DNA of 64,000 nt from Candidatus Afararchaeum irisae (GTDB lineage: Archaea; Halobacteriota; Halobacteria; Halobacteriales; Afararchaeaceae). A model generated the notes under the pieces. That model was not told the DNA's origin. It was given only the letters and a program-made list of their open reading frames with translations, and did not search any database. The DNA lies in contig JAXIOF010000031.1 in NCBI GenBank assembly GCA_034190545.1, forward strand, positions 1 to 64,000, in the 5' to 3' direction. Below, piece after piece: positions 3,225 through 27,922 of this stretch. How positions within the stretch are numbered: position 1 is the first letter of the stretch; each line of letters starts with the position of its first letter. Made by a program: the position numbers and the translations under genes.

Positions 3225-3225
3225 A

Positions 3226-9871: not shown

Positions 9872-11218
9872 TTAGCTGAGATAACCTAGTTCTTCGAGAC
9901 GTTCTTCCACCTCGTTGTCCATAGTTATGTCAGGGAGTTTTTCATTGGTTGACTTCACTTTGTCGAGGTGCTCGACCAATTCGTCATGTAACTCCTGCGC
10001 TACCTCCTCATATTCGGTTGAATTAATCATATTCTCCGTCTCTCCCGGATTCTCCGCGAGGTTATAGAGCTCACGTTCCTCGTTTCCAATGTCCCAGATG
10101 TATTTATACTCATCTGTCCTTACCGATATCTTGTATCCTTCCGGGTTGTTGGTCTCACTTATGATGTGACGGCGTTTGCCTTCGTTTTCGAGGGCGGAGA
10201 CACCTCTGTAGTTCGGAGGATTCTCCACACCGACGATATCGCAGACAGTAGGGGGAACGTCAAGTAGCTCTACCGGGATATCCTCGGATATATCACGAGC
10301 GTCTGTGCCGTGGATGACGAACGGAACGTGCAGAACCTCGTCGTACATCGAGTCGTTGTGGCTGAATCCACCGTGGTCGCGGAACTCCTCGCCGTGGTCC
10401 GACGTGAAGATAACCGCGGTGTCATCGGCAATACCTGACTCTTCGAGATGTTCATACAGCCTCCGTATCTGGTTATCGACGTACCGTATCTCGCAGTCGT
10501 ACAGGTCTATCAACGTTTTTAGGTCGTCGTCGGATATCTCGTCCGGCTCCTCAAGCATCTTACGCCGGAGTTTGACAGCCTCGCGTTCGGAGATGTTCAG
10601 ATCGATACCGAGTTCGCCGAGCGTGTCGTGTGGAACGTACGGGTGGTGGACATCCATGTAATGGGTCCAGACGAAAAAGTCATCTTCCTGTTCCGATATC
10701 CAGTCTACCGTGAGATCGGTCATCGTCTCGGCGTCCTTGTACGTCTGTCCTACGTCAACGCCGGACTTCTCCTCCGTGGTGTCGTAGAGCCACTGCAGAA
10801 TGCGGTACAGACGGCTGTCGTGGTCAAGGTTTGTCTTAACGTAGGCGCGTAGCTTTGCGAGTAAAGTAGGGTCGGACTTGGAGTCGTAGAAGGTGTCGAA
10901 TCCACGGTCATAGTTGTAGTCGCGCGAGAGCCACAGGTTGGAGTGAAACGCCGCCGTCGAGGCTTGGTCGGAGACCGCCTCACCGACCGTGACGCGGCTA
11001 TCTGACAGGTACTCGAAGCCTCCGTATTCGAGAGGGTAAGTCGACGTAAGTATCGACGGGAAGGACGCCCGTGTCCACGTGGAGTTGGCGTAGGCGTCAA
11101 ACGAAGCCCCTTCGTACGCGAGAGTGTCAATAAACGGAGTCGTATCCCGTTCGTATCCGTAACACCCTACGTGGTCTGCACGGAGCGAGTCTACGGTTAG
11201 TAAGACGACGTTCGTCAT
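9872..11218 (-). CDS. Sulfatase/alkaline-phosphatase superfamily hydrolase (Thr nucleophile)
   Basis: A 448-residue protein opening TNVVLLTVDSLRADHVGCYG, with D10 as a metal ligand. The central FTSDHGEEFRDHGG supplies the second metal cluster. The end is ERLEELGYLS. The nucleophile region reads N-S-T-W-T49-R-A-S-F-P, so the C-x-P-x-R signature needed for formylglycine conversion is absent. Such members may be phosphodiesterases, phosphotransferases or formylglycine-independent hydrolases instead. It is cytoplasmic by sequence (no signal peptide). It shares the sulfation cluster with a paralogue at 20-21 kb, so a role in trimming or transferring charged groups on glycan precursors is plausible but unproven. 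Confidence 0.85.
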   Translation of the reverse strand: MTNVVLLTVDSLRADHVGCYGYERDTTPFIDTLAYEGASFDAYANSTWTRASFPSILTSTYPLEYGGFEYLSDSRVTVGEAVSDQASTAAFHSNLWLSRDYNYDRGFDTFYDSKSDPTLLAKLRAYVKTNLDHDSRLYRILQWLYDTTEEKSGVDVGQTYKDAETMTDLTVDWISEQEDDFFVWTHYMDVHHPYVPHDTLGELGIDLNISEREAVKLRRKMLEEPDEISDDDLKTLIDLYDCEIRYVDNQIRRLYEHLEESGIADDTAVIFTSDHGEEFRDHGGFSHNDSMYDEVLHVPFVIHGTDARDISEDIPVELLDVPPTVCDIVGVENPPNYRGVSALENEGKRRHIISETNNPEGYKISVRTDEYKYIWDIGNEERELYNLAENPGETENMINSTEYEEVAQELHDELVEHLDKVKSTNEKLPDITMDNEVEERLEELGYLS

Positions 11219-11253: not shown

Positions 11254-12684
11254 CTACTGGTTGACCGAAGGCAGGGGTACGTACTCGGAAAAAACGTCGC
11301 GTATATCTTCATCAAGAAGGACGAGAACACCGTAGACGACGGCTCCAAGAGCGACCACGGCGACCAAGGAAGGAACGCGTCTCGGAGACAGAACGCGAGC
11401 GACGGCGTACACGACGCCCCCCATGATGAGCGCGGAGACCGTCTCCCATGCTATACTCCTCTTAGGTATCCTGAGTTCGACGACATCAGCTACGTAGTAC
11501 CACTGTATCGCCGTGTCGACGAACTTGGCGACGACCGTTGCAACCGCCGCGCCGACGAGACCGACCGTCGGTATGAGCGCGGCGTTCAGGACGAGCGCGA
11601 GTGTCACACCGACCATACGTGACCTGAAAGGGAGTTCGGGACGTTCCAGACCGACGAGTGTCGAGTTGACGACGCGCTGGATTGATTCGACCACCATGTA
11701 GCCGGCGAGTAACGTCATCGGTACGGCGGCGACGGCGTACTCGGGTCGATATACGACCGACAGAATCTCTTCACCAAGGACCGCGATACCGACGAGACCC
11801 GGAAGCGGGAAGAACAGCGTGAACAGGACCGCACCTGACAGGAGGCGTGACACCTCATCGGTGTCACCTTTGGTGGCGTGCTTGGATATCTTGGGAAAGA
11901 CCGTCTGGTTTATGGCGTAGGTTGCGATTATCATGACGCGCGTCGTCTGCCAAGCGACCTCGTATGCGCTGACATCGGGACGGGTGAGGAACAGTCCTAT
12001 CATGAGCGTATCAAACCAAAAGTAGACGAGGTTGGTGGGTCCGTAGAACATCGTGTACCGTGAGATGGAGAAGATACGTGAGAAGTGTTCGCGTAACGGA
12101 ATACGGAGGGAGACGTTGAGAAGGGGGTACGCGACCACCACGGTCGCCGCAAACCCGGCTATCACGCCCCAGATTAACCCAACCGCGCCGTATCCCAACG
12201 TTATGAGAACAGCCCCGACACCGACGCGCAAGACATCTTGTAGGAGCTGGACAGCGCCCGAAGTGAGAACGCGGTCCTCTCCCTGTAACGACCTTACGAG
12301 AACGTCGGCGACCAGCCACAGTCCGACGGCGACGACGATGAACACCGGAACGTCGAGTCCTATGTAGTCAGCGAGGTAGCCGCGGAAGACAAAGACGAGT
12401 ACAGCGACGGCGACGGACGCCGCGGTGGCTATAGTCACCGACGCAGAAAAGACGCCGTCGGTGTCTTCTCCCTCGCTTATCCGTTTGACCGCGGCGGACG
12501 TTACACCGAGGTTCGACATCAGGGAAGATAGCTGTACGACTGTGAAGAAAAGGAAGTATGCACCGAGTTCTTCGGGAGGTAGGACGCGTGCAAAGTAGAC
12601 GAGACCAAGGAAGCCGACTGCGCGCGCTGTAAGATGTATCCCGAACAGGATTATGCTCTGTCTACCCGCGTCTCCGTCAGTCAA
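11254..12684 (-). CDS. Polysaccharide/lipid-linked oligosaccharide flippase (MATE/MVF-like)
   Basis: A 476-residue integral membrane protein with about 12-14 hydrophobic segments spread evenly. It begins GRQSIILFGIHLTARAVGFLGL, typical of the Wzx-like RfbX/PST flippase family. In archaea such proteins (AglR-like) move dolichol-linked glycans to the outer face before AglB acts. Its position among glycosyltransferases, sulfotransferases and AglB fits this. Residues of the substrate cavity are not diagnostic. Confidence 0.88.
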   Translation of the reverse strand: MTDGDAGRQSIILFGIHLTARAVGFLGLVYFARVLPPEELGAYFLFFTVVQLSSLMSNLGVTSAAVKRISEGEDTDGVFSASVTIATAASVAVAVLVFVFRGYLADYIGLDVPVFIVVAVGLWLVADVLVRSLQGEDRVLTSGAVQLLQDVLRVGVGAVLITLGYGAVGLIWGVIAGFAATVVVAYPLLNVSLRIPLREHFSRIFSISRYTMFYGPTNLVYFWFDTLMIGLFLTRPDVSAYEVAWQTTRVMIIATYAINQTVFPKISKHATKGDTDEVSRLLSGAVLFTLFFPLPGLVGIAVLGEEILSVVYRPEYAVAAVPMTLLAGYMVVESIQRVVNSTLVGLERPELPFRSRMVGVTLALVLNAALIPTVGLVGAAVATVVAKFVDTAIQWYYVADVVELRIPKRSIAWETVSALIMGGVVYAVARVLSPRRVPSLVAVVALGAVVYGVLVLLDEDIRDVFSEYVPLPSVNQ

Positions 12685-12792: not shown

Positions 12793-13656
12793 TTACCAAG
12801 AAGAATCTTGAACATATCCCAGTTCAGTCAGCATATTACCAGACTTCTGTTTGAACGCTTCCTTGTGTCTCTCGTTAAATTCATTTTCCCAGTCTCCGAT
12901 TAGCCCCTTTCGAAAGGTGCTACTTTCGGTGTCAAACAGATTATTAGCTATATAATCAACGTGTTTCTCTGAGATTGGTTTCCCTATGTGCCCAGATATC
13001 CTCTGTATCGTCTCTTTTTGTGATTGTTTATCACCCCCCCCATTAGGACCTATTAGGTTCTCAAATTTCACGGTCAGATTGTAATTTTCCGCATTCCATT
13101 TATAAAAAGAGTCCATCCACTCAAGCACCCCTTCAAATCGGTTACCATCATCAGCGTGTTTTCCAGAGACACCTTTTATAGATGCCATAAGACGTGCGTC
13201 ATCGTCAGGTAGATTAACGTAGTAGTCATGGAGCCTATGTGACGTATTTTTTTCCGTCACCCAGTGATAGTGGGAGACAGCGACGTCCCTAGGGTCTCGA
13301 ATTATAAGAAGAGATCGGATAGATTCCTGTTCAAGTATATTCGAATTCTCCTCGGTATAGAATACATGCCCTGTCATGTATTGGCCCGCTTTGGTTTTAT
13401 CCAGTTTCTGTCGAAAGTCATCGGAATCCCCATTCCTATTATAATTCATGTGAACATGTCTGCCAGCAATCCTAAGACGGTGAAGAGGGCCCGAAGGACG
13501 TAAGTAAGGGAAAAGAAAGAGACATTTTGCAAGGAGATTTGTACCGGATTTTGGCACACTATTTGCGAATACACGAGGAGCCCCCAAACGAGACATGATT
13601 CTGTTTGGCGAGTAACAATAGGCAAATATTTTGAACTTCTCTAATACCGAGTTCAT
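12793..13656 (-). CDS. PAPS-dependent sulfotransferase
   Basis: A 287-residue protein with the 5'-phosphosulfate-binding loop FANSVPKSGTNLLAKCL (about residues 31-47) and the 3'-phosphate-binding segment LLIIRDPRDVAVSHYHW (about 115-131). The C-terminus NMLTELGY is the usual sulfotransferase ending. It would transfer sulfate from PAPS to a hydroxyl, probably on a glycan or glycolipid. The gene is visibly A+T-richer than its neighbours, with runs such as aaatttcat, which suggests recent transfer. The 108-bp gap to the flippase holds no further gene. Confidence 0.9.
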   Translation of the reverse strand: MNSVLEKFKIFAYCYSPNRIMSRLGAPRVFANSVPKSGTNLLAKCLFLFPYLRPSGPLHRLRIAGRHVHMNYNRNGDSDDFRQKLDKTKAGQYMTGHVFYTEENSNILEQESIRSLLIIRDPRDVAVSHYHWVTEKNTSHRLHDYYVNLPDDDARLMASIKGVSGKHADDGNRFEGVLEWMDSFYKWNAENYNLTVKFENLIGPNGGGDKQSQKETIQRISGHIGKPISEKHVDYIANNLFDTESSTFRKGLIGDWENEFNERHKEAFKQKSGNMLTELGYVQDSSW

Positions 13657-13707: not shown

Positions 13708-14793
13708 CTAGCCAAGTGTATTCAGAATGTTGACTAGATCATCCATCTTATTTGCTCTACTAAACTCTTCAAAAACCGACTCCTCTGAAGGATATTCGAG
13801 TTCTCTCGAAAGAACTCTTTCGATACCGTCGGCTATCCCTTCGGTGTCTTCGGGATGTACCGCTATTCCTAAGTTGTTCTCCTCGATGAGTCGGGCTACA
13901 CGGAACGAAGGGTCGACGACGGCGAGTATCGGTGTTCTTGCACCCATGTAGTCCCATATCTTCGACGGAACGCTGAGTCGGTTCTCCGGGTCGTCGCCGC
14001 CGATGTAGACGACGATGTCGGAGCCTTTGAGAACGGGTATGATTTCGTTGTGAGGCACGAAGTCGTGTGTTTCGACGAATCCGGTGAGTTCAAGCTCCTC
14101 GACCTTCTCCTGATACCCCTCGTTCCAGTCACCGTAGAACTGTAAGTTTAGTTCGTCGGGTTCCGGTTCGTTCCTCTCCACGTACTCCGAAAATCCTTCG
14201 AGGAGCTCGTACGGCTCTATCCATCCCTCGTAGAACGAACCGGCGTACGTGACCGTGGTAGCGTCGTATCTCTCGGCGGGCGCGGACTCGAACTTCTCCG
14301 ACTCGAAGCCGAGGAAAGGCAACTCGTAGAACCTCTCAGACGGAACTTCCGGATACTTGTTTTCAAGATGGTCATCTCCCATCTGTATACCGTCTCCCCA
14401 GACAACTTGGTCAGCGTTCCGAACCGCCAAACCTTCGACCCACGACGCCACCTTGGTGAGGAACGCGTCAGGGTCACGGTCAGGGTTGTCAACCATAGGG
14501 TCGCGGAACTCAACGAGCCAAGGAAGACGCAGAAGACTGCTTACAACGTAACCTATCAGCTGGAGATGGAAGGGATTACTGACGGAGTTGACCACGTCAA
14601 CGTCGTGCTTTCGTCCGATATACAGGCACTTCAGAACCGCATAAGGAAAGAGAGGGATGTACGGTTGGGGAACACGTCCTACTACTACCTTCCATCCTCT
14701 CTCCCGTAGCATCCGTTTGCGTGTGGCGAACTTCTCGGAGCGTCCTCCTTCGTTGTCAATATCAACATTCGAAATTAGTAGGACAGTTGGCAT
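13708..14793 (-). CDS. Glycosyltransferase family 4-like protein
   Basis: A 361-residue GT-B fold enzyme. The N-terminal half starts MPTVLLISNVDIDNEGGRSE and includes LPWLVEFRDPMVDNP. The C-terminal donor-binding half has TVTYAGSFYEGW, GSDIVVYIGGDDP and the SVPSKIWDYMGARTPILAV block, which is the usual E-x7-E-like nucleotide-sugar region of GT4 enzymes. It is a cytosolic sugar transferase for the local glycan; donor and acceptor are not deducible. The 197-bp gap to the PHP gene contains no open gene. Confidence 0.88.
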   Translation of the reverse strand: MPTVLLISNVDIDNEGGRSEKFATRKRMLRERGWKVVVGRVPQPYIPLFPYAVLKCLYIGRKHDVDVVNSVSNPFHLQLIGYVVSSLLRLPWLVEFRDPMVDNPDRDPDAFLTKVASWVEGLAVRNADQVVWGDGIQMGDDHLENKYPEVPSERFYELPFLGFESEKFESAPAERYDATTVTYAGSFYEGWIEPYELLEGFSEYVERNEPEPDELNLQFYGDWNEGYQEKVEELELTGFVETHDFVPHNEIIPVLKGSDIVVYIGGDDPENRLSVPSKIWDYMGARTPILAVVDPSFRVARLIEENNLGIAVHPEDTEGIADGIERVLSRELEYPSEESVFEEFSRANKMDDLVNILNTLG

Positions 14794-14990: not shown

Positions 14991-15851
14991 TTATTCCACT
15001 GAAGACTCAGTTCTCAACTTCAACAGTTGTTCTTCCGTAACTGCCACCTTACCAATCCGAAACTTACCCGACTCTGGACCATGACAGTCCGAACCCCCCG
15101 TCTTCAGCAGACTGTGTCCCTCCGCGAGTGCCTCGGCTTCCTCTACACCTATATCGGCGTAGTCGTCCGATCTTACCTCGCCATACGGGTACCAGACTTC
15201 AATGGCATCCAGTCCACTCTCAACGAGTTCTTCGGTCATCTCCGGGACGCTTCCGGAGCGGATACGCCCCGGATGCGCGAGGGAGGTGACGCCGCCGGCT
15301 TCGTGTACCGCCTTGATTACTTCGTCGTACGGGGCGCGCTCCATAGGTACGTACACGTCACCACCCTCAGCGAGGTACTCGTCGAAAGCCTCCGAGACGG
15401 TGTCGACGTAGCCCTCGTCTATGAGAAGATCCGCGAGATGGGGACGTCCGAGACTTCCTTCGACGGAGTCGTTGAGCGACTCGTACGTGACATCAAGACC
15501 CGTAACTTCGGTCAGTCTGTCAACAATCTTTCGGTTACGCTTTTCCCTGTACCCGCGTACCTTCTCAAGCACCGAGTTGAGTCTGTCATTTGTAGGGTCG
15601 ATGTAATAGCCGAGTATCTCTATTTTGGTATCGAAGATATCGGCACGTATCTCAACGCCGGTGACAACCTCAATACCCTTGTACGATTTTCTGGGTGATT
15701 CGAGAGATGGAGGGATACGGTCGTGATCGGTGATAGATATAGCTTTCAGACCTCTGTCCTTTGCTTGTTCTACACGCTCCTCAACAGTGGATGTTCCATC
15801 TGAGTTCGTGGTATGTATATGTAAGTCAGCATATCCGTTCTTCATTCCCAT
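14991..15851 (-). CDS. PHP-domain phosphoesterase (candidate PAP/3',5'-bisphosphate nucleotidase)
   Basis: A 286-residue PHP phosphoesterase with all the metal motifs: ADLHIHTTNSDG near the N-terminus, SITDHD (about 38-43), VVTGVEI, SLAHPGR (about 188-194) and GGSDCHG near the C-terminus. Close bacterial relatives (RNase AM/YciV and the Chromobacterium enzyme) remove the 3'-phosphate from nucleoside 3',5'-bisphosphates including PAP. Here it is divergent from sat-cysC and flanked by sulfotransferases, which produce PAP. A PAP-recycling role is therefore a strong contextual inference; no classical CysQ-type phosphatase is visible in the window. Confidence 0.85.
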   Translation of the reverse strand: MGMKNGYADLHIHTTNSDGTSTVEERVEQAKDRGLKAISITDHDRIPPSLESPRKSYKGIEVVTGVEIRADIFDTKIEILGYYIDPTNDRLNSVLEKVRGYREKRNRKIVDRLTEVTGLDVTYESLNDSVEGSLGRPHLADLLIDEGYVDTVSEAFDEYLAEGGDVYVPMERAPYDEVIKAVHEAGGVTSLAHPGRIRSGSVPEMTEELVESGLDAIEVWYPYGEVRSDDYADIGVEEAEALAEGHSLLKTGGSDCHGPESGKFRIGKVAVTEEQLLKLRTESSVE

Positions 15852-15945: not shown

Positions 15946-17097
15946 ATGATAGATCCCCATGGCGGCTATCTCGTAGATAGAGTTATAGAAGATAAACACG
16001 CGGAGTCTGCAAAAGAGGAACTCTCCGATCTACCAAGCATACGTCTTGATTACGGTAGCTATCAAGATGCTATAAATATATCTAGCGGGCGTTACAGTCC
16101 CCTTACAGGGTTTCTGTCACAAAACGACCTATTAAAAGTCGCACATGACATGACGTTAGAGGACGGAACTGTTTGGCCTCTCCCCATAATTCTTGATGTC
16201 GGCAGCGAACTAGCTGCTGAACTCGAACCTGGCAGAAAGGCAGGCCTGGAGTCGCCCGACGGCGAACTAATAGGTTTCCTTAACATTGATGAGGTATATA
16301 GACAGAACAAAGAGGAGATTGCTGAAAGTATATTCGGGACAGACGACGAATCACACCCCGGCGTGAGAAGTTATCTGGAGATGGAGGACTTCCTTGTAGG
16401 TGGTTCAATAAAGCTCTTCGACGAACACAGGTACAACGACCGTGACCTACTTCCACGCGAGTCACGCGTTCTTTTCGACTCGAAGGACTGGGACACCGTC
16501 GTCGGATTCCAGACGAGGAACGCGCCGCACCGTGCCCACGAATACATACAGAAGTCAGCACTCGAACACGTAGATGGCATCCTGATACAGCCCAAGCTCG
16601 GCGACAAGAAAGAAGGAGACTACCAGGACGACGTGATAATTGGGGGATACGACAGACTCATTGAGAGCTACTATCCCGACAATAGAGCAGTTCTCTCGGT
16701 CTTCCCAAGCGTGATGCGATACGCAGGTCCGCGTGAAGCCGTCTTCGACTCGATAATCAGGAAGAACCAAGGCTGTACGCACTTCGTAATTGGAAGGGAT
16801 CACGCAGGTGTAGGTGACTTCTACGGCGGCTTTGACGCCCACCGAATCTTCGATGAAATAAGTGATATTGGTGTAGAACCTCTCTTCTTCAACTACTCGT
16901 TCTTCTGTGAGAAGTGCGACGGCATGACGTCTGAAAAGGTCTGTCCCCACAGTGATGAGAAGCGTATATATCCGAGTGGTAGCAAGATACGCGATATGAT
17001 AAGATCTGGAGAGGAACCGTCGGAGAAAATAATGCGTCCCGAGGTGGCTAACTTTATTATCGACGCGGAGGAACCGTTTGTAGGAGGAAAAGTATGA
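15946..17097 (+). CDS. sat: ATP sulfurylase
   Basis: A 383-residue sulfate adenylyltransferase making APS from ATP and sulfate. The nucleotide motif FQTRNAPHRAHE (about 187-198) carries QTRN and the HxxH element. GRDHAGVGDFYG (about 282-293) is the second signature, and a Cys-rich F-F-C-E-K-C...C-P-H segment (about 321-336) matches the zinc site of prokaryotic homologues. A longer frame exists upstream to 15730, but the ATG at 15946 gives the normal MIDPHGG start and avoids overlapping the divergent PHP gene. Its stop overlaps cysC by 4 nt (ATGA). Confidence 0.95.
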   Translation: MIDPHGGYLVDRVIEDKHAESAKEELSDLPSIRLDYGSYQDAINISSGRYSPLTGFLSQNDLLKVAHDMTLEDGTVWPLPIILDVGSELAAELEPGRKAGLESPDGELIGFLNIDEVYRQNKEEIAESIFGTDDESHPGVRSYLEMEDFLVGGSIKLFDEHRYNDRDLLPRESRVLFDSKDWDTVVGFQTRNAPHRAHEYIQKSALEHVDGILIQPKLGDKKEGDYQDDVIIGGYDRLIESYYPDNRAVLSVFPSVMRYAGPREAVFDSIIRKNQGCTHFVIGRDHAGVGDFYGGFDAHRIFDEISDIGVEPLFFNYSFFCEKCDGMTSEKVCPHSDEKRIYPSGSKIRDMIRSGEEPSEKIMRPEVANFIIDAEEPFVGGKV

Positions 17098-17711
17098 GCT
17101 TTACACTGTGGTTCATGGGGCTACCTGCGTCCGGGAAGTCTACGTTAGCCAAACGGGTGGAAGAACATCTACGGGAGGCGGGTTTGGATGTTGAGAACCT
17201 TGACGGCGACGAGATACGCAAGAACATGCATCCGGACCTCGGATTCACGCGTGAAGATCGAGCAACAAATAATCGACGGACTGCGTTCATCTGTAAACTA
17301 CTGAACAGGAACGGGATAGCGTGCGTAACAGGTATGATAACCCCGTTCCGCGAATCACAGCAGGAGATACGAGACATAATAGAGCCGACGGGGAAGGTAG
17401 TTCTGATATACGTTAAAGCCTCTGTTGAGACGTGCGCCGAAAGGGACCCCAAGGGACTATACGAGAAGGCTCAGGAGGGAAAGATAGAGAACTTCACCGG
17501 CGTAAATCATCCTTTCCAAGAGCCGCACAACCCCGACATAGTCGTGGATACAGAGGAAATGTCCGTGGACGCGAGTGTCGAACACGTAAAACGTAGGCTA
17601 TCGGAGATAGGGGTGCTTTCGGAGGTCAGCGAGGAAGACTACGGCATGGATCTGTCTCAACAGGAGGCAGAAGATATACAGGAACGCCTGAAAAATTTGG
17701 GGTACCTTTAG
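17094..17711 (+). CDS. cysC: Adenylylsulfate (APS) kinase
   Basis: A 205-residue kinase making PAPS from APS. P-loop GLPASGKST is at about residues 9-17, LDGDEIRKN at about 39-47, and FTREDRATNNRR and the lid/substrate motif KGLYEKAQEGKIENFTGV follow; all are canonical. The last 25-30 residues go beyond the usual kinase core and end EDIQERLKNLGYL, resembling the ends of the two sulfatase-like proteins nearby. Translationally coupled to sat. The stop codon TAG lies inside the 8-bp target duplication of the IS6-like element, so the insertion left the protein intact. Confidence 0.95.
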   Translation: MSFTLWFMGLPASGKSTLAKRVEEHLREAGLDVENLDGDEIRKNMHPDLGFTREDRATNNRRTAFICKLLNRNGIACVTGMITPFRESQQEIRDIIEPTGKVVLIYVKASVETCAERDPKGLYEKAQEGKIENFTGVNHPFQEPHNPDIVVDTEEMSVDASVEHVKRRLSEIGVLSEVSEEDYGMDLSQQEAEDIQERLKNLGYL

Positions 17712-17773
17712 GGGGGCGGTGTCAACCTTAGAGAGTAAGAGTGTGGTTGAGAAATTTTGTTATAGGATCAAAA

Positions 17774-18433
17774 ATGCTCAACCACATGATAGAGAAAGCA
17801 CGCGAAGAAGAAATATTTTGTCGTGAAGATACTCCGACGGAAAGACGTTGCAAACGCGAAACGTTTGCAGCCCACAAATCTTCGATTTGTGAACGCGTTG
17901 TCGCGTCTTTCCTGTACTATGCTGGATTATCGTATCGTGATATAGAACCGGTGGTCGACCGATCTTACGAAGCTGTGAGACAGTGGTATCACCGACTGTC
18001 TCACCTCTTCGAACCAGAAACTGACCACCGAGAAGTAGTTGCTGTCGACGAAACCAAGCTGGAAATTGACGGGGTGGAAGTGTATGTCTGGGCAGCTGTC
18101 GACGTGGACACCTTCGAGGTGATCCACGTCGACGTCAGTAAAGGTAGATCTAACCTCGACGCATTACTCTTTCTACGTGAGGTGATTAGTAGGTGTCGAG
18201 GTCGACCTTTGCTAAAGGTCGGCCGAGGCCCTTGGTACAACTGGCCATTACATGAGCTAGACTGTGACTTCGAACGTGAAACCTTCGGACAACGTAGCAT
18301 TATAGAGTCGTGGTTCGGTGTTTTAAGACACCGAACCACTCGATTCTGGAATCACTTCCCGACCAATAGCTCTATCAAATCAACCTCAAACTGGTTAAAA
18401 TCCTATGCTGCTCTCCACAACATCATGCTCTAA
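17774..18433 (+). CDS. IS6-like DDE transposase, catalytic residue altered
   Basis: The transposase of the element (219 residues from this ATG; an upstream in-frame ATG at 17741 is possible). It has an N-terminal helix-turn-helix-like region and a DDE domain: AVDET (Asp at 18047-18049), a KVGRGPWYNW block where the second catalytic Asp is expected, and SIIESWFG (Glu at 18305-18307). Haloarchaeal relatives have D-R-G-P-W-Y; here the codon at 18221-18223 is GGC (Gly), one base from GAC. The enzyme is therefore probably inactive. Two short hairpins are embedded in frame near the N-terminus. Confidence 0.85.
   Translation: MLNHMIEKAREEEIFCREDTPTERRCKRETFAAHKSSICERVVASFLYYAGLSYRDIEPVVDRSYEAVRQWYHRLSHLFEPETDHREVVAVDETKLEIDGVEVYVWAAVDVDTFEVIHVDVSKGRSNLDALLFLREVISRCRGRPLLKVGRGPWYNWPLHELDCDFERETFGQRSIIESWFGVLRHRTTRFWNHFPTNSSIKSTSNWLKSYAALHNIML
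17849..17891. repeat. Two hairpins inside the transposase gene
   Basis: Hairpin 1 (17849-17869): stem TGCAAACG/CGTTTGCA with a 5-nt loop. Hairpin 2 (17873-17891): stem CACAAATC/GATTTGTG with a TTC loop. They add about 16 residues (CKRETFAAHKSSIC region) between the N-terminal segment and the conserved ERVVASFLYYAGLSYR helix. The same stem core AAATC-TTC-GATTT recurs at 38889-38905. Confidence 0.6.
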
Positions 18434-18629
18434 ACTTGACACCCTCCTTTAGGGGATGAGTGCCCCAAGCCAAAGACTATATTCAGAACGCTCATCTGTA
18501 GCAGTGAATACTTGCCGTTATTTAAGCTATACTTGACTATTCAGTCTGGCAGATCTATTCATCGACTTTCGCTAGGTATTCGCATCTACACATGAGCGTA
18601 TTCAGAAATATGTCTGGTGAACCCTACTT

Positions 18630-19700
18630 CTATCCGAAGACACCGTACCTGAGTATCATATACCTGGAGAATGAGCGCGCCATTTGACGCCTAATCTGCT
18701 CACGAGGGCTTTCGCGCCAGTGTTTGAGAGTCCACCTACGTGTTATCTTTTTGTCTTTCTTTCGGTATTTTTCTTTGTCAATCTCAAACTCAGCCAGTTC
18801 GTCTTCGTTATATGTTCTTTCATAGCCGAACCGTTCTAAGATATCTCCCGCTATCTTTTCCGTTATCTTAATTTCTTCCTCTGGAAGTTGCTCGTGGAAC
18901 TTGTCGTAGTTGTCGCTCATTATTGGGGAGGTAAGGTTCTCAAAGACGTCGGCGCTTTCGGAAGCCGCCTCCGCCTCTTCTGTCTCATAGTAGTAGAGCA
19001 TACGCTCGTCGTACTCCATCTCCAAGAAGTCACAGATGTTTTTGACGACCGACTCTGGATCCTGTAGCAGATCCTTGTATCTCAGGAGATGGACGGATTC
19101 ATCATGTCGGTTGAGCAGTTCGGCACCTTTAGTCTGCTCGTCGTACCATCTTTTAGCATTGAAGTACGGATGGTATCTTCCGACGTTTGACGTCTTGAAT
19201 GACAGAACAACATCGCGGACGTCCCTGACGAGATAAACAAACTTGGGTTTCTCATAGTAGTCAAAGATATCATCAAGAAACTCCCAGAGAGCTGGGTACT
19301 TAGAAGCCCATGCCGAACATTCTTCCTGCTCGGCGTAGACGTTGTACAGGGACTTCTGTACGTCAAACAAGGCGTGACCCTGACTCTGCTCCGATATCTC
19401 ATACTCCTCATATACGTCATCAACACTAATGGGGGAATCAAGTGGGTGGAAAGAATAGTTTTTGTTAATAAGCACATCGCGTAGGAGTTTACGTGCGCGT
19501 TTGTCGCTCATATCTCCCGGTGAAACTATCCTTTGCCACGGATATGCCGTTTCGAGAGGATGAGGTGCAGATATTTCAGGATGCGTATTCAGTATGCTAC
19601 GTACTAGGTTTGACCCAGACCTCTCTGTTGAGATTAACATTATCGGTTGTTTGTCTTCATCTGTTCTATTAGTCTCAGTATTTAGAACACTCTCTGACAT
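18630..19700 (-). CDS. Sulfotransferase family protein
   Basis: A 356-residue protein with the PAPS 5'-phosphosulfate loop LISTERSGSNLVRSIL (about residues 22-37) and the 3'-phosphate segment FVYLVRDVRDVVLSFKTSN (about 153-171). These define the sulfotransferase/Stf0-like superfamily. It is larger than the first sulfotransferase, with a basic C-terminal extension (KKDKKITRRWTLKHWRESPR). It converges on sat-cysC from the other side of the IS. Substrate unknown; an acceptor on the glycan is likely. The gene and its upstream 108 bp are relatively A+T-rich. Confidence 0.88.
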   Translation of the reverse strand: MSESVLNTETNRTDEDKQPIMLISTERSGSNLVRSILNTHPEISAPHPLETAYPWQRIVSPGDMSDKRARKLLRDVLINKNYSFHPLDSPISVDDVYEEYEISEQSQGHALFDVQKSLYNVYAEQEECSAWASKYPALWEFLDDIFDYYEKPKFVYLVRDVRDVVLSFKTSNVGRYHPYFNAKRWYDEQTKGAELLNRHDESVHLLRYKDLLQDPESVVKNICDFLEMEYDERMLYYYETEEAEAASESADVFENLTSPIMSDNYDKFHEQLPEEEIKITEKIAGDILERFGYERTYNEDELAEFEIDKEKYRKKDKKITRRWTLKHWRESPREQIRRQMARSFSRYMILRYGVFG

Positions 19701-19808
19701 ACTTTGTAGTATGGTTGAGACGTAGTAAACTACTTGGTTAAACTTATCGATGAAACAGAGGCAAACTTGCGAAACTGATATGTCTGATACGGTTCTATTT
19801 TGGCCAAG

Positions 19809-19976
19809 ATGTCAGAAAACAGAATTGGTGGTGAGAAGTCACGTGTACTGTATCTTTTGATCTTCCTTACAGGCGTGCTGATAGGTAGTTGGGTAAGGGT
19901 AGTTACGTTCATCATGCCCAAAAGATTTGTTGAGTACTTTATACAAAGGTTACTTCCAAGTCAAGAGTCTGACTGA
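19809..19976 (+). CDS. Small single-span membrane protein (55 aa)
   Basis: A 55-codon frame from ATG 19809 to TGA 19974. It has a polar start (MSENRIGGEKSR), one hydrophobic helix VLYLLIFLTGVLIGSWVRVV (about 13-32), and an amphipathic, basic C-terminal part. It fills the space between a divergent sulfotransferase and a convergent sulfatase-like gene, ending 1 nt before the latter's stop. Organisation (positive residues next to the span, no stops, fits the gap) supports a real gene, but no homologue is recognised. Confidence 0.45.
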   Translation: MSENRIGGEKSRVLYLLIFLTGVLIGSWVRVVTFIMPKRFVEYFIQRLLPSQESD

Positions 19977-19977
19977 G

Positions 19978-21243
19978 TTACAGATATCCAAGATCCTCAA
20001 GACGGTTCTTCGTCGTCTGATTGACCTCGGCGGCGGTCACGTACATCTGTTCGTCCCCCTCAAGAATATCCTGTAGGTCGTCGAAGTACTCCTCGGCGAC
20101 CTCGCCCTCGTTGTCGAGTAGGTTACGCTCCTCGCCGGGATCCTGTGCGATATAGTAGAGTTCGACGGGTTCAAGTTCGCCGTTCGCCGTGCAGATGAGC
20201 TTCCACTCGTTGGAGCGTAGGCAGACGAGAGAGTCGAGTTCGTTCCACCCAAAGTCGTACCTCTCGTTCATTTTATGCGTGAGCTTGTTCTCCTTCGTTA
20301 GCTGTCCATGATACGTCTCGGAGTAGGCGAACTCCGGGTGTTCGCCGTCGAGCAACGTCTCCCCATCCATCTCGGGAGCATCTATTTCAAGCGCATCGAG
20401 GAGCGTAGGCACGATATCGATGCTACGCACCTGTTCGTGAACCGTCTTGTCGGGGAAAGGGTCGCCGCTGAAGACGAGAGGTACGCGTATCAGGTTATCG
20501 TAGAGTTCGACAGCGCGGAACTGCGATCCGACGCGGTTGCCCTCACTGTCGTAGACCCATGGGTAACCGTGTTCGCCGGGCATCTTGGAGCCGTGGTCAC
20601 CGGTTACAACCGTCGCGTCTATATCGACGAGTTCGTGTAGGTTTTCGAGTTGACGCGCGACAAACTCCGACTCCTCGCGGTACCTGCGCTGGTAACGCCC
20701 GATATACTGCTCTACGTTCTCGTAGACGTTGTTTTCGTCGAACTCCGGTTCGTCACGTTTGCCGAACTCAGAGCGTAGCGTCAGGTGTAGGTCGAACGAA
20801 TGTATGAAGACGAAGTTGTCCTCACCCTCATGGTCATCAAGCCAGTTCACAGCGCGGTTCACGAGGAGGTTTGCGGGTCCGAACTCGTCGCCACGCCCCT
20901 CCATACGGTCTTCCATCGGTGTTATGTGATGAAACTCGTCGAACGAATCGGGTATGTTTCCGGTCGGAAGAGGATATCCACCTGTGAATCCCACTGTGTT
21001 GTATCCTTCCTCGGAGAGTACCTCGGGCAGAAGCGTCGCGTCCGTCTCGTAGTCGATGAGCCACCGCACCCCGTGGTTGAACGGGTTGAGTCCGGACAGC
21101 ATTGAAGTATGAGACGGACTCGTGAACGCAGCCTGTGTAATACAGGTGTCGTAGTAGCTACCCGATGCCTTCAGTCTCTCGTAGAACCGGTGGTCGAAAA
21201 AGTCTGGTCTGATACAGTCCACTGACACGAAAACTACATTCAT
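19978..21243 (-). CDS. Sulfatase/alkaline-phosphatase superfamily hydrolase (Thr nucleophile), second copy
   Basis: A 421-residue protein opening MNVVFVSVDCIRPDFF (D9 and D14 in metal-binding positions). The nucleophile motif is A-A-F-T41-S-P-S-H-T-S: threonine where sulfatases carry the Cys/Ser that becomes formylglycine. VVTGDHGSKMPGEHG (around residues 215-230) supplies further metal ligands. The C-terminus is KNRLEDLGYL. As in the paralogue at 9.9-11.2 kb, a strict sulfate-ester hydrolase is not guaranteed; phosphatase, phosphodiesterase or transferase activity is equally compatible. It lies 38 nt upstream of (beyond) the aminotransferase gene on the same strand. Confidence 0.85.
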   Translation of the reverse strand: MNVVFVSVDCIRPDFFDHRFYERLKASGSYYDTCITQAAFTSPSHTSMLSGLNPFNHGVRWLIDYETDATLLPEVLSEEGYNTVGFTGGYPLPTGNIPDSFDEFHHITPMEDRMEGRGDEFGPANLLVNRAVNWLDDHEGEDNFVFIHSFDLHLTLRSEFGKRDEPEFDENNVYENVEQYIGRYQRRYREESEFVARQLENLHELVDIDATVVTGDHGSKMPGEHGYPWVYDSEGNRVGSQFRAVELYDNLIRVPLVFSGDPFPDKTVHEQVRSIDIVPTLLDALEIDAPEMDGETLLDGEHPEFAYSETYHGQLTKENKLTHKMNERYDFGWNELDSLVCLRSNEWKLICTANGELEPVELYYIAQDPGEERNLLDNEGEVAEEYFDDLQDILEGDEQMYVTAAEVNQTTKNRLEDLGYL

Positions 21244-21281: not shown

Positions 21282-22346
21282 TCAGTCGAAGTAGGAGTTT
21301 ACCTCTGTAACTACTTTGTTCATGTCGTCCTCAGTAAGATTGGGGTGTATCGGCAAGAGAAGGACTTTGTCGGTGACACGTTCCGTGTTCGGAAAACGAG
21401 ATGCATCTGTTGAGGGAGCGAGACTGTAGTCGTAGAGGGGTTTTTCGTACACAATAGAGGACTCAACATCTCTCTCAGATAAGTACTCCCTCAGACCTAT
21501 GTTGTCTTCCGTGCGTATAGGAAAACCGTGGTATACGTTGGTTCTGTTAGGGCGAGTTTTGGGAAGAACCACGTTGGAGGTAAGTTCTTTTAGGTAGTAT
21601 TCGGCTACCCTTTGTCTGTCAGTAAGTATGCTGTCGTACTTCTTGAGTTGTTGTATTCCTATCGCAGCCTCGATATCGTTCATACGGACACTACGTAGAG
21701 GAGTTTCAAAGTCGCCGTTCGTATTCGATCTCAACGTCTTGACACGTTCGGTGTAATCCGGGTTGTCGGAGACCACCATTCCTCCCTCAGCAGTTGTTAT
21801 GTTCTTTGTAGCACCGAAGCTACATACACCGATGTCGCCATATGTAGCTATGCTGTTCTCATCATACTTAGCACCTGGTGACTGACCGAAGTCGTTTATC
21901 ACCATGAGGTCGTTGTCTTTGGCTATCTCGATAAGCCTGTCCATTTCACAGGACTGTCCGTAAAGAGGAGTTAACAGGATACCTTCAGCTTCCTGCCTTC
22001 CCAGTTCATTCTTGACGAAGTCAGGGTCTATGTTGTAGCTGTCTTTACGTATGTCACAGAACACGGGACAAAGATTCTGTCGTATGAGGGAGTAAAGAAC
22101 TGCGGCACAATTGAAGGGCGAGACTATGACTTCATCGCCATCTTCTAAGTCGCTAACCTCCAGAGCGAGTTCCAAGGCGACACTACCTGAACAGACAGCC
22201 GCTGCATTTTCCCTACCGGCGAACTCACAGAATCTCTCCTCAAACTCTTCAACCACGTTGCCTACTGAAAGCTCTCCCCTTGATAGAAGGTCGTTAACTG
22301 CTTCTATCTCATCTTCTCCCGTTCTTGGTGAGCCTAACGAAACCAT
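21282..22346 (-). CDS. DegT/DnrJ/EryC1/StrS aminotransferase
   Basis: A 354-residue PLP-dependent sugar aminotransferase. The PLP Schiff-base lysine is in CSFGATKNITTAEGG (about residues 175-189). The N-terminal GSPRTGEDEIEAVNDLLSRGEL and SGSVALELAL blocks are typical. It converts a keto-sugar nucleotide to an amino sugar. Its ATG overlaps the stop of the FemAB-like gene by 1 nt (TGATG), which couples the two and suggests that the amino group is then acylated. Confidence 0.92.
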   Translation of the reverse strand: MVSLGSPRTGEDEIEAVNDLLSRGELSVGNVVEEFEERFCEFAGRENAAAVCSGSVALELALEVSDLEDGDEVIVSPFNCAAVLYSLIRQNLCPVFCDIRKDSYNIDPDFVKNELGRQEAEGILLTPLYGQSCEMDRLIEIAKDNDLMVINDFGQSPGAKYDENSIATYGDIGVCSFGATKNITTAEGGMVVSDNPDYTERVKTLRSNTNGDFETPLRSVRMNDIEAAIGIQQLKKYDSILTDRQRVAEYYLKELTSNVVLPKTRPNRTNVYHGFPIRTEDNIGLREYLSERDVESSIVYEKPLYDYSLAPSTDASRFPNTERVTDKVLLLPIHPNLTEDDMNKVVTEVNSYFD

Positions 22347-23404
22347 CAGTTACTCTTTTCTATACGGTACTCCGGGAAGTATCCATCGCCGGTGTCGATG
22401 CCCGCATTCTCGGCTTTGTCTATCAGTTCGGCGTAGACTTGGGGCATGTGTACCGACGTACCAAGGTACATTTCAGCCCGGTCTGGCGAGAACGACTTCT
22501 TGAACTTGAAGACGCCGGGTCTACCTCCTTGGAAGTCGAACACCTTTCTTCCGGTGTCACGCATGTGCATCAAAGCCCCATAACAGAGCAGGTTGTTGAC
22601 GCGCATATCCCAGTAGTCGGGGTTGGAAGCCCGTAGGTAGTCGTGTGCCAGTTCTTCGTTGTGTACCACCATGGCACCGCCGACCACCTCGTCGTCGTAC
22701 GTGGCTACGAGAAGCGTCGACAGGTCTGTCTCCAGCATATCGGCGAAGAACCCGTACTCAAAGCGGTAGTGGTCGGTGGCGTCCTTTGCGTCCATTGCAT
22801 TGGTATAGATATCGTAGAAAGCCTTGTAGTCCTGAGTATCTTCGGTGGGTCTCACCTCAAGCTCCGTCTCCTGAGCCTGTCTTATGGCGTTCCTGTTACG
22901 TTTCTCAAACTTGTCCCAGATGGTCTCCTCGTCCTTTGTCAGATCAACAGGAACAGTCTCCCTGTTGAACTCGGGTTCCAGACAGTCGAACCGTTCGTGG
23001 TTCCTTTCGTTGGGGTCGAAACGGACGAACTCTGCGACGATGTTCTCCGACCGGCAGAAATCGCGGAACTCCTCCGCGAACTTATCACAGAGTTCGCTGT
23101 CGTCTCTTGACGTGAACGGTCCGCCATAGTACCACGAGGAGACTATATCGTCGTACTTCGACAGGTCGGTTTCGGCTTCGTCGGCGAAAGGAACAGATTC
23201 GAGCGACCGGCGCATGTACGGGTAGTAGACAACATCATCGCCGTCTTTGAGAACGAAAGCTTCAGCGCGCTCGTCGTCGTGTTCAAACTCTCCCGCGAGT
23301 ATTCGGAGATAGTCAGGTCGGTGGTATGGTCCGGGTTCGTCGACACGTTCGTAATACTCCCACCAATCTTCGGTATCCTCCGTAGTTAGGTGTATCGTCT
23401 CCAT
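22346..23404 (-). CDS. FemAB/GNAT-like N-acyltransferase
   Basis: A 352-residue protein resembling the FemAB-type tandem GNAT acyltransferases. Supporting features are GPYHRPDYLRIL near the N-terminus, WDKFEKRNRNAIRQAQE (about 165-181), then FYDIYTNAMDAKDATDHYRF, and a second GNAT core with TLLVATYDDEVVGGAMVVHNEE and LLCYGALMHMRDTG...FDFQGGRPG. These transfer an acyl or aminoacyl group to amines. Coupled to a sugar aminotransferase, it probably N-acylates the newly made amino sugar. The acyl donor is unknown. Confidence 0.75.
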   Translation of the reverse strand: METIHLTTEDTEDWWEYYERVDEPGPYHRPDYLRILAGEFEHDDERAEAFVLKDGDDVVYYPYMRRSLESVPFADEAETDLSKYDDIVSSWYYGGPFTSRDDSELCDKFAEEFRDFCRSENIVAEFVRFDPNERNHERFDCLEPEFNRETVPVDLTKDEETIWDKFEKRNRNAIRQAQETELEVRPTEDTQDYKAFYDIYTNAMDAKDATDHYRFEYGFFADMLETDLSTLLVATYDDEVVGGAMVVHNEELAHDYLRASNPDYWDMRVNNLLCYGALMHMRDTGRKVFDFQGGRPGVFKFKKSFSPDRAEMYLGTSVHMPQVYAELIDKAENAGIDTGDGYFPEYRIEKSN

Positions 23405-23407
23405 CTC

Positions 23408-24400
23408 TCACATGTAGGGGTACTCGGAGTTCCTGAAGTTATCTCTCTCGTAATCGGTAATATCCTCCTCCTTCATCCATTCCTTTATCTCCTGCACACC
23501 GTCTGCGATATCGTACTCCGCCTCCCATCCGAGTATATGGTTTATCTTGTCGAAGTTTACGCGGTAGGTACGGTCGTCCTCTTTGTGTTCGACGAAACGC
23601 ACTTCGGCGTCCTCTACGTTCTCCTCGACGATACGTCCGACCTCTTTTATCTGATGGTTCAGGTCGTTGTCGCCGACATTGAATATCTCGTGGTCAACTT
23701 TCTCCTCGTCGGCTTCGAGAGCGGCGACAAACGCGCGCGCAGCGTCGTGTACGTGTACAAGAGGACGGTACTGTTCGCCGCCGTAGACAGGTATGTCGTC
23801 TTCGAGTACTGCCTTTGCGGTTAGGAGATTGACCACTAGGTCGAAACGCATCCGGCGTGCCCATCCGAATATGGTTCCGAGACGCAGTATAGTAGGCGTA
23901 ATATCGTTGTCCGAGAACATATCATGCGTCTCGTGGAGTATTATCTCTTCGGACTCTATGTTAGTCTCTGCATAAAGTGAGAGCGGATTCAGGTACGACC
24001 CCTCGTTTAGCTCCATCAGCTCGCTTGCTCCATAGACACTACACGAAGATGCGAACAGAAGACGTTCTATGTCGTGTAGCTTACATACCTCGACGAGAGA
24101 CTTTGTCGCCTCGACATTGACCGCCTGTGTCGCCTGTTCGTTGACACCACACGCGGGATCTCCGACTATACCTGCCATGTGTATCACGGCTTCCATGTCT
24201 TCGAGAGCGTACGATAGATCCTCTATGTGACGTATGTCACCTTCACGGACTTCGAGGTTTTCGTTGTCAGAAAATGGCTCAAGGGCGTTGTCTCCCCAGA
24301 GCATCGAGTCAAGAACTCGTACCTCGTGTCCGTTCTCCAGTAATTCTTCGACTATGTAATTGCCTATGTATCCCGCGCCACCCGTTACAAGCGTTTTCAT
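23408..24400 (-). CDS. NAD-dependent sugar epimerase/dehydratase
   Basis: A 330-residue extended SDR beginning MKTLVTGGAGYIGNYIVEEL, with MEAVIHMAGIVGDPAC, FASSCSVYG, and a Y-A-E-T-N catalytic stretch (LYAETNIESE) in which the usual YxxxK lysine is replaced by asparagine. The position of that lysine should be checked, since loss would weaken ordinary epimerase chemistry. It is 3 nt from the acyltransferase gene and belongs to the aminotransferase/acyltransferase operon, suggesting it prepares the keto-sugar. Confidence 0.88.
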   Translation of the reverse strand: MKTLVTGGAGYIGNYIVEELLENGHEVRVLDSMLWGDNALEPFSDNENLEVREGDIRHIEDLSYALEDMEAVIHMAGIVGDPACGVNEQATQAVNVEATKSLVEVCKLHDIERLLFASSCSVYGASELMELNEGSYLNPLSLYAETNIESEEIILHETHDMFSDNDITPTILRLGTIFGWARRMRFDLVVNLLTAKAVLEDDIPVYGGEQYRPLVHVHDAARAFVAALEADEEKVDHEIFNVGDNDLNHQIKEVGRIVEENVEDAEVRFVEHKEDDRTYRVNFDKINHILGWEAEYDIADGVQEIKEWMKEEDITDYERDNFRNSEYPYM

Positions 24401-24474
24401 GCGGTGTGGTTTGATGGAGGGGTGGTCTATATGTGTTTTGGAATCCTCTTGACTCTCAAACTACCGAAAACGGT

Positions 24475-25638
24475 CTAAATACTGCTTCTACCAAACTCCC
24501 GCACTGTCTCGATAACGTACTCTACTTCTTCGTCCGTGATATTCGGATGATTCGGTAGACCTATCATATTTCCGACGACATCTTCAACGTTAGGTAGTGA
24601 CAGATCGTAGCTGTGATCGTTTGGATTAACACTCCAGGGGAACTCGGAGTTGAAACCGCGGTGTTCGGTAAAGACAGGCTGGTCGTATAATGGAACGTTG
24701 TACCGATGCCGCGTCTCAACGCCTTCTTCCTTGAGTTTACTCCAGACCTCTTTACCTGTCATACCTATCTCCTCTGTCTGGATCTCGAATGGTGCCCAGA
24801 AGTAGGCGTGTTCTACGTAGTTTCGAACAGTCGCGGGTTCGAGCCAATCGAGATCACCGAGTTCTTCGAATAGGCGTTCACTCACCTCTCGGCGTCGCTC
24901 GTTGAACTCGTCAAGACGGTCGACCTGTGCCTCTCCGATTGCACCGTTTAGCTCACTCATACGGTAGTTGTAGCCGAGCGTGACGTGTTCGTCGCGGTTC
25001 GCCATACCATGACTTCTGAGTGAACGGAGTTCTTCCGCGAGCTCACTGCTGTCGGTCGTAACTATACCTCCTTCCCCCGTTGTGATGTTCTTAGTAGCAT
25101 AGAAAGAGAAACATCCTGCGTCACCGATTGATCCGACTTTATCGCCCTTGTACGACGCGCCGTGAGCCTGTGCAGCGTCCTCTATGACATGTAGACCGTG
25201 TTTATTGGCGAACTCACGTATCTCGTCCATTTCAGCAGGATGCCCATAGAGATGAACAGGCATGACTGCGAAGGTCTCGTCAGTCACACAACGTTCGAGA
25301 TCGGTATGATCGAGACTGTAGAGTTCGCGGTCAATATCGGCGAAGACAGGCACACCTGCCTGATGTACCACTGCTGTAGCCGTCGAGCCGAACGTGAGAG
25401 AAGGCACGATAACTTCATCCCCGGGTTCGAGACCAAGTGCCTTGAGGGTTAGCTGGATCGCCGTCGTTCCATTCGATACGGCAACTGCGTGTTCCGTGCC
25501 GACGTATTCCGCCCACTTCTCCTCAAACTCTTCGACGTAAGGACCTTGAAGAAACCGTCCTGAGTCGAGAACCTCTTCTATATTTACTCTCTCTTCATCT
25601 CCTAGCACAGGCTCGGCTACACTCACGTTTTTCTCCAT
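24475..25638 (-). CDS. DegT/DnrJ/EryC1/StrS aminotransferase, second copy
   Basis: A 387-residue PLP enzyme with SNGTTAIQLTLKALGL (about 56-71), VIEDAAQAHGASYKG, and the PLP lysine motif CFSFYATKNITTGEGG (about 180-195). It is longer and diverged from the aminotransferase at 21-22 kb, so the two probably act on different sugar nucleotides. It is separated from the epimerase downstream by 74 nt and is divergent from lhgO. Confidence 0.93.
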   Translation of the reverse strand: MEKNVSVAEPVLGDEERVNIEEVLDSGRFLQGPYVEEFEEKWAEYVGTEHAVAVSNGTTAIQLTLKALGLEPGDEVIVPSLTFGSTATAVVHQAGVPVFADIDRELYSLDHTDLERCVTDETFAVMPVHLYGHPAEMDEIREFANKHGLHVIEDAAQAHGASYKGDKVGSIGDAGCFSFYATKNITTGEGGIVTTDSSELAEELRSLRSHGMANRDEHVTLGYNYRMSELNGAIGEAQVDRLDEFNERRREVSERLFEELGDLDWLEPATVRNYVEHAYFWAPFEIQTEEIGMTGKEVWSKLKEEGVETRHRYNVPLYDQPVFTEHRGFNSEFPWSVNPNDHSYDLSLPNVEDVVGNMIGLPNHPNITDEEVEYVIETVREFGRSSI

Positions 25639-27869: not shown

Positions 27870-27922
27870 TGGGCGGGATAGGATGTAAAAAGTTAAACCG
27901 TCTTCGGAACGTGGTTAGTGCG

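Follow-up and report, generated by a model that had tools for sequence, protein, structure and literature searches.

We describe a 64,000-nucleotide stretch of the genome of Candidatus Afararchaeum irisae (positions 1 to 64,000 of contig JAXIOF010000031.1, hereafter the window), in which genes for ATP sulfurylase (Sat) and adenosine-5'-phosphosulfate (APS) kinase lie together with two sulfotransferases of the type that uses 3'-phosphoadenosine-5'-phosphosulfate (PAPS), a flippase, glycosyltransferases and the oligosaccharyltransferase AglB. Based on gene content and arrangement, this set probably constitutes a cassette dedicated to PAPS-dependent sulfation within an AglB N-glycan locus, and it is in our judgement very probable that the PAPS cassette itself is a working one. 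All genes named in an initial annotation of the window (ATP sulfurylase, APS kinase, two sulfotransferases, a PHP-domain protein, a flippase, AglB and glycosyltransferases) are present as intact open reading frames, where it had placed them or close by, according to the open reading frame list and to Pfam and NCBIfam matches. The putative cassette comprises five genes:

12793-13656, minus strand: ST1, PAPS-dependent sulfotransferase (PF00685; Pfam E=1.4e-13)
14991-15851, minus strand: PHP-domain phosphoesterase (PF02811), proposed phosphatase of 3'-phosphoadenosine-5'-phosphate (PAP)
15946-17097, plus strand: sat, homomeric ATP sulfurylase (PF01747, E=1e-81; PF14306)
17094-17711, plus strand: apsK, APS kinase (PF01583, E=5e-54)
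18630-19700, minus strand: ST2, PAPS-dependent sulfotransferase (PF13469; Pfam E=9e-27)

The product of sat scores above the curated cut-offs of both NCBIfam models NF003166 and TIGR00339, and possesses the full domain set with the HxxH-type motif, the stretches QTRNAPHRAH and GRDHAGVG being intact. The apsK gene, which overlaps sat by 4 bp, encodes a full-length kinase domain with an intact P-loop (GLPASGKST) that reaches 186 bits with TIGR00455, for a cut-off of 138.7. Whole-genome searches of the 1.9 Mb assembly to which the window belongs (98.9% complete) found a single Sat, located in the window, and no other full-length APS kinase, the only further match being a 55-residue P-loop; ST1 and ST2 are likewise the only proteins of families PF00685 and PF13469. 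Since these single genome copies all fall in the window, the clustering of Sat, APS kinase and the sulfotransferases is not a matter of chance. The same searches found no PAPS/APS reductase, as the sole PF01507 match is the tRNA-thiolation enzyme NcsA. PAPS would therefore serve sulfotransfer and not assimilation, sulfotransfer being the only use of PAPS visible in the gene content of this genome.

Both sulfotransferases score above the Pfam gathering thresholds and carry the 5'- and 3'-binding motifs of their families. ST1 displays a 5'-phosphosulfate-binding motif PKSGTN, a catalytic His at the aligned position, a 3'-phosphate-binding motif RDPRDVAVS and an RKGxxGDW motif; its matches to SULT structures, though weak, are consistent. 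In ST2 the corresponding 5' and 3' motifs read ERSGSN and RDVRDVVLS, and the best structural matches are CurM and polyketide-synthase sulfotransferases (E=1e-8). Their sequences thus identify both as PAPS-type sulfotransferases, for which transfer of a sulfuryl group to a sugar hydroxyl is predicted.

The rarity that the initial annotation had supposed is borne out by a comparison across 245 Halobacteriales genomes: Sat occurs in only 7 of them, and Sat together with APS kinase in 5, namely the genome of the window, Halobellus inordinatus (G216), G186, G196 and G224. A sixth Sat-apsK locus, from Haloarculaceae archaeon H-GB1-1 (L003), was added to this set. A PF00685 sulfotransferase is found near Sat-apsK in all five paired genomes, and a distinct type of PHP protein (see below) near Sat in four of the five. 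More broadly, a real APS kinase is present in 15 of the 16 sulfotransferase-positive genomes versus 2 of the 229 others (Fisher p=6e-21; p=9e-20 when the window's own genome is left out). Of the six loci, three (window, H. inordinatus, H-GB1-1) have aglB no more than 13 kb away from Sat, and four have glycan genes as neighbours. The fourth is G186, with a flippase and glycosyl genes, and with a divergent STT3 (G186:C1:713117-715105) some 20 kb distant from its genes for Sat and APS kinase. The co-occurrence with aglB that the initial annotation had proposed to look for holds for three loci, but two of the six lie outside any recognisable glycan locus.

Sat has another setting in this order. 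In G024 and G036, Sat proteins homologous to that of the window (44-47% identity) are encoded in sulfite reductase/siroheme operons. Unlike the window, neither genome has an APS kinase, and the operon of G024 includes a PF01507 reductase. Because the Sat genes that lack an APS kinase sit in such operons, the two types of loci represent separate uses of the enzyme. We reject an assimilatory role for the Sat and APS kinase of the window, given a genome free of reductase and the different appearance of assimilatory Sat loci. These assimilatory sulfate-reduction operons (L025:5878-12141; L023:17845 to L024:3765) are themselves rare in Halobacteriales.

We also noticed a second haloarchaeal PAPS module, present in 12 genomes that lack a Sat of the window type (L049:8319-12862, L047:7511-13740 and L048:6796-11287; also at L053, L054, L055, L056, L060 and L061). 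It comprises a divergent sulfotransferase of about 407 residues, an APS kinase, a GntA-like (YqcI/YcgG) hydroxylase and, in several cases, a PHP protein. In the one case scanned, the APS kinase continues at its C-terminus into a fused nucleotidyltransferase-like domain, which might be a minimal ATP sulfurylase; in G039 genes for an ADI/amidinotransferase-like protein and an argininosuccinate synthase are added. This module looks like a cluster for a sulfated guanidine-type small molecule.

A PAPS module of the kind found in the window needs a PAP phosphatase, and the PHP gene, divergent from sat and separated from it by 94 bp, is a well-supported candidate for this activity. Its metal-ligand motifs (HxH, TDHD, GVE, AHP, SDxH) are kept. 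Some PHP protein is found in every haloarchaeal genome that is at least 90% complete, but the one of the window falls into a separate clade (support 100/100) whose members are 53-58% identical to it, the other haloarchaeal PHP proteins forming a distant clade. Members of this Sat-linked clade are adjacent to and divergent from Sat-apsK in the window, H. inordinatus and H-GB1-1, adjacent and convergent in G196, and about 5 kb away in G186, so that the association extends over five loci in three arrangements (co-occurrence p=3e-5 with the own genome left out), with G239, discussed below, as an exception. G224 has Sat-apsK without a nearby PHP gene; the clade is also present in G047 (a genome 64% complete), and a 43%-identical, long-branched member occurs in G059, a genome without Sat. 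The earlier idea of a self-contained module that makes, uses and recycles PAPS is thus confirmed as to making and use, through Sat, APS kinase and the two sulfotransferases, while recycling by the PHP protein is probable only. Such a phosphatase would add to the archaeal PAP phosphatases known so far, which belong to the DHH family (Methanothermococcus, PMC10322725). The characterised 3',5'-nucleoside bisphosphate phosphatase of Chromobacterium violaceum shares the PHP domain and the kept metal ligands with the protein of the window, for which, scoring far below the cut-off of the corresponding model (NF041577), this function is a prediction. We take PDB entry 2YB1 to be that C. violaceum enzyme.

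The cassette is surrounded by genes of a glycan locus, listed here with the other features of the region:

1395-8596, minus strand: nucleotide-sugar supply, with a GlmS-like protein, two nucleotidyltransferases and three SDR epimerase/dehydratases (Pfam)
9872-11218, minus strand: sulf1, AlkP-superfamily protein (PF00884; Pfam E=3e-43)
11254-12684, minus strand: MOP-superfamily polysaccharide flippase, Wzx/MurJ-like (PF13440, E=1e-22; PF01943, E=2e-21)
13708-14793, minus strand: GT4-type glycosyltransferase (PF13692, PF00534)
17741-18433, plus strand: IS6-family transposase, outside the pathway (NF033587, E=7e-33, 114 for a cut-off of 125; PF13610)
19978-21243, minus strand: sulf2, second AlkP-superfamily protein (PF00884, E=3e-18)
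21282-25638, minus strand: amino-sugar genes, with a DegT aminotransferase, a FemAB/GNAT-like N-acyltransferase, an SDR epimerase and a second DegT (Pfam)
26943-27869, minus strand: GT2 glycosyltransferase (PF00535)
27869-30721, plus strand: AglB oligosaccharyltransferase (TIGR04154, 758 bits for a cut-off of 450)

The clustering of AglB, glycosyltransferases and nucleotide-sugar genes marks this region as an N-glycosylation locus, and a homologue of the GT2 gene adjoins aglB also in H-GB1-1 (64% identity) and in a Halobacterium genome (G071). The G+C content drops to 45-52% across 12-28 kb, versus about 56% over most of the window; low G+C is common for glycan loci that are exchanged. The IS6-family transposase between apsK and ST2 had escaped the initial annotation, and no exact terminal inverted repeats of at least 10 bases were found in its flanks. 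A second related IS6-family copy lies elsewhere in the genome (L083:2813-3430), beside another AlkP-fold gene. The two aminotransferases, the acyltransferase and the epimerase suggest an N-acylated amino sugar in the glycan, perhaps one whose acyl or aminoacyl substituent is unusual. The genome also encodes a second, divergent STT3/AglB-like protein (G000:C3:6762-8735).

In the mechanism that we propose, Sat and APS kinase would convert sulfate and ATP to APS and then to PAPS, from which ST1 and ST2 would transfer sulfuryl groups to two positions of the growing, lipid-carried sugar chain at the cytoplasmic face. The PHP phosphoesterase would strip the 3'-phosphate from the by-product PAP, the MOP flippase would turn over the sulfated lipid-linked glycan, and AglB would finally move it to Asn residues of surface proteins, this order of steps being our conjecture. 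The proximity of aglB in three of the six loci and of a flippase together with glycan genes in four favours a lipid-carried glycan, probably transferred by AglB, as the acceptor. Our judgement, which is not a computed value, is that a glycan is quite likely to be the acceptor, and that a glycan linked by AglB is somewhat favoured over others, this being the least certain step of the scheme.

The two AlkP-superfamily proteins, described in the initial annotation as sulfatase-like hydrolases, do not bear out that description. Motif searches and alignments found no C/S-x-P-x-R formylglycine motif in either sulf1 or sulf2; both have a Thr at the nucleophile position (Thr49 in sulf1, aligned with the formylglycine) and keep the metal ligands (D10, D274 and H275 in sulf1). 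No FGE-family enzyme (PF03781) was matched in the genome, in a search that did not extend to anaerobic sulfatase-maturating radical enzymes (anSME), and on these grounds we reject an assignment as formylglycine-dependent (S1) sulfatases. Across the AlkP superfamily, nucleophilic Thr residues are characteristic of transferases and phosphodiesterases, EptA/MCR and LtaS among them. With their fold, their nucleophile and their place in an aglB locus, sulf1 and sulf2 have the features of the Agl30/Agl31 type, the tested haloarchaeal relatives being sulfotransferases, and AlkP-fold genes also accompany Sat in H. inordinatus, H-GB1-1 and G186. Simple orthology with Agl30 or Agl31 finds no support in the AlkP tree, where sulf1 belongs to a clade (97/92) that leaves out the Agl31 candidate and has its nearest relative in G239, and where sulf2 sits on a long branch without placement. 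We regard both as relatives of haloarchaeal AlkP-fold transferases and hydrolases; they might be additional transferases that modify the same glycan. Two more AlkP-fold proteins with a Thr nucleophile are encoded elsewhere in the genome (L082:8754-10196 and L083:4865-6232), and the former groups with a Halobacterium salinarum protein lying outside the aglB cluster. The glycan locus of G239 (L051:2787-10268) combines the sulf1 relative (45% identity) with a second AlkP-fold gene, a flippase, a GT2-like gene and the Sat-linked type of PHP, and could be a PAPS-independent relative of the locus described here.

Several findings weigh against our proposal. The top NCBIfam model for the PHP protein, NF041577 (3',5'-nucleoside bisphosphate phosphatase), gives 148 bits for a cut-off of 400, with an RNase RNM model close behind at 133 bits, so that membership of this family is not established; the Sat-linked PHP clade occurs in the glycan locus of G239, where neither Sat nor APS kinase is present; the Sat-apsK-sulfotransferase units of G196 and G224 stand in non-glycan surroundings far from aglB; and the haloarchaeal N-glycan sulfation proven so far uses AlkP-fold enzymes instead (PMC11980604). 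The scores and the G239 case would suit an oligoribonuclease-like enzyme or an unrelated nucleotidase that is merely nearby, which we consider improbable given that five separate loci, in three arrangements, have a member of the clade next to Sat-apsK or a short way off, that the other haloarchaeal PHP proteins form a distant clade, and that the second PAPS module, too, has a PHP protein, a different one, encoded beside its APS kinase and a gene resembling sulfotransferases. The settings in G196 and G224 imply that the Sat-apsK-sulfotransferase family can serve other acceptors. The PAPS cassette could accordingly be real and yet act on a molecule not handled by AglB, such as a membrane glycolipid, a small molecule or an exopolysaccharide for which the flippase is the exporter, with AglB a mere neighbour: sulfated glycolipids are made by haloarchaea, and the GntA-like hydroxylase and, in one case, the amidinotransferase-like protein of the second module indicate that PAPS may serve small molecules. 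With glycan genes around four of the six loci, and with aglB so close in three of them, which is very unlikely to arise by chance although glycan genes cluster for other reasons too, we find this alternative unlikely, if less easily set aside.

As to sulf1 and sulf2, it might be that they are the true glycan sulfotransferases and that the PAPS-type enzymes act elsewhere, or that both chemistries operate on one glycan. Agl30 and Agl31 sulfate the N-glycan of H. salinarum (PMC11980604), their candidate genes encode a Ser or Thr nucleophile as in sulf1 and sulf2, and AlkP-fold genes lie beside Sat in four of the six loci and beside aglB-cluster genes in Halobacterium. But the tree separates sulf1 from the Agl31 candidate and leaves sulf2 unplaced, Thr-nucleophile AlkP proteins include phosphoethanolamine and glycerolphosphate transferases as well as phosphodiesterases, and no sulfate donor is known for Agl30/31, so that we give this possibility little weight. 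That sulf1 and sulf2 are sulfatases or phosphodiesterases, stripping sulfate or phosphate from glycans that the cell imports or makes itself, appears more doubtful still. Among solved structures, choline sulfatase, arylsulfatases and glycosaminoglycan sulfatases come closest in sequence, and the metal ligands are kept, but against this stand the missing formylglycine motif, the Thr nucleophiles and the lack of an FGE-family enzyme in a search that did not include anSME. We retain the PAPS-dependent cassette acting on an AglB-linked glycan. That haloarchaea possess two independent chemistries for sulfating surface glycans, one AlkP-fold and PAPS-independent with a Thr/Ser nucleophile, as in Halobacterium, the other rarer and based on PAPS and PHP, and that both meet here on one glycan, we offer as a tentative idea with the odds against it.

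Archaea have been known to carry sulfated N-glycans since the 1980s. The papers that we consulted do not report the sulfate donor for these glycans or its supply, and our literature searches found nothing direct on the use of PAPS by haloarchaea or on sulfotransferases for sulfated glycolipids. New with respect to this literature are the association of a PAPS cassette with an archaeal AglB, how seldom it occurs, the PHP protein as a partner, and the difference from a Halobacterium route free of PAPS genes; sulfated N-glycans in haloarchaea and PAPS genes with sulfotransferases in bacterial polysaccharide loci (PMC11641403) were already known. The locus provides an example, complete in its genes, of sulfation based on PAPS, while PAPS genes seem to be missing altogether from the model organism H. 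salinarum, and it raises the question whether haloarchaea sulfate glycans via two donors and two enzyme folds. It also leads us to propose a PHP-family PAP phosphatase in archaea, and is a warning that AlkP proteins with a Thr nucleophile, when found in loci of this kind, should not be labelled sulfatases.

One genome of our set (G063) we take to be H. salinarum, as it contains a 100% match to bacteriorhodopsin. Contig C17 of this genome carries three AlkP genes that fit VNG1063H, VNG1057C and VNG1056C by order, by size and, for one of them, by an N-terminal membrane segment, and that are assigned to them on this ground and not by database name; in alignments, the nucleophile of all three candidates is Thr or Ser. 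In Halobacterium G071, the search for Agl30/31 genes found only one short AlkP protein next to aglB. No Sat and no PF00685 or PF13469 protein was found in G063, where the APS kinase search returned only a 25-bit P-loop match, and neither Sat nor either sulfotransferase family was found in the control genome of Haloferax volcanii, these searches not covering sulfurylases of the CysDN type or APS kinases of an unrecognised kind. The proven N-glycan sulfotransferases of H. salinarum are Agl30 (VNG1056C) and Agl31 (VNG1057C), AlkP-fold enzymes of the aglB cluster, and H. volcanii supports sulfation by introduced Agl30/31 (PMC11980604) and makes a sulfated hexose (PMC4022621). The route described so far in haloarchaea thus seems not to depend on recognisable PAPS genes, and the locus in the window is a different variant, based on PAPS. 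The Halobacterium precedent invoked by the initial annotation holds for the presence of sulfated glycans but is less direct as to the enzymes.

The locus described here thus seems to be a rare variant in which archaeal glycan sulfation is of the PAPS type, and in which two chemistries may operate next to each other. With the Agl30/31 system of H. salinarum it shares a glycan locus at aglB, a GT2 gene and AlkP proteins with a Ser/Thr nucleophile, but where that system has AlkP-fold sulfotransferases, an unreported donor and no PAPS genes, the window encodes a full PAPS pathway and two PAPS-type sulfotransferases. In this respect it resembles bacterial sulfated capsule loci such as that of Vibrio sp. 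KMM 8419, in which PAPS synthesis genes and sulfotransferases lie inside the polysaccharide locus, an arrangement that the authors of that study call a hallmark of sulfated polysaccharide synthesis (PMC11641403). Yet the Vibrio locus uses cysDN and cysC, whereas the window combines a homomeric Sat and an APS kinase with a PHP protein and an archaeal oligosaccharyltransferase as neighbour.

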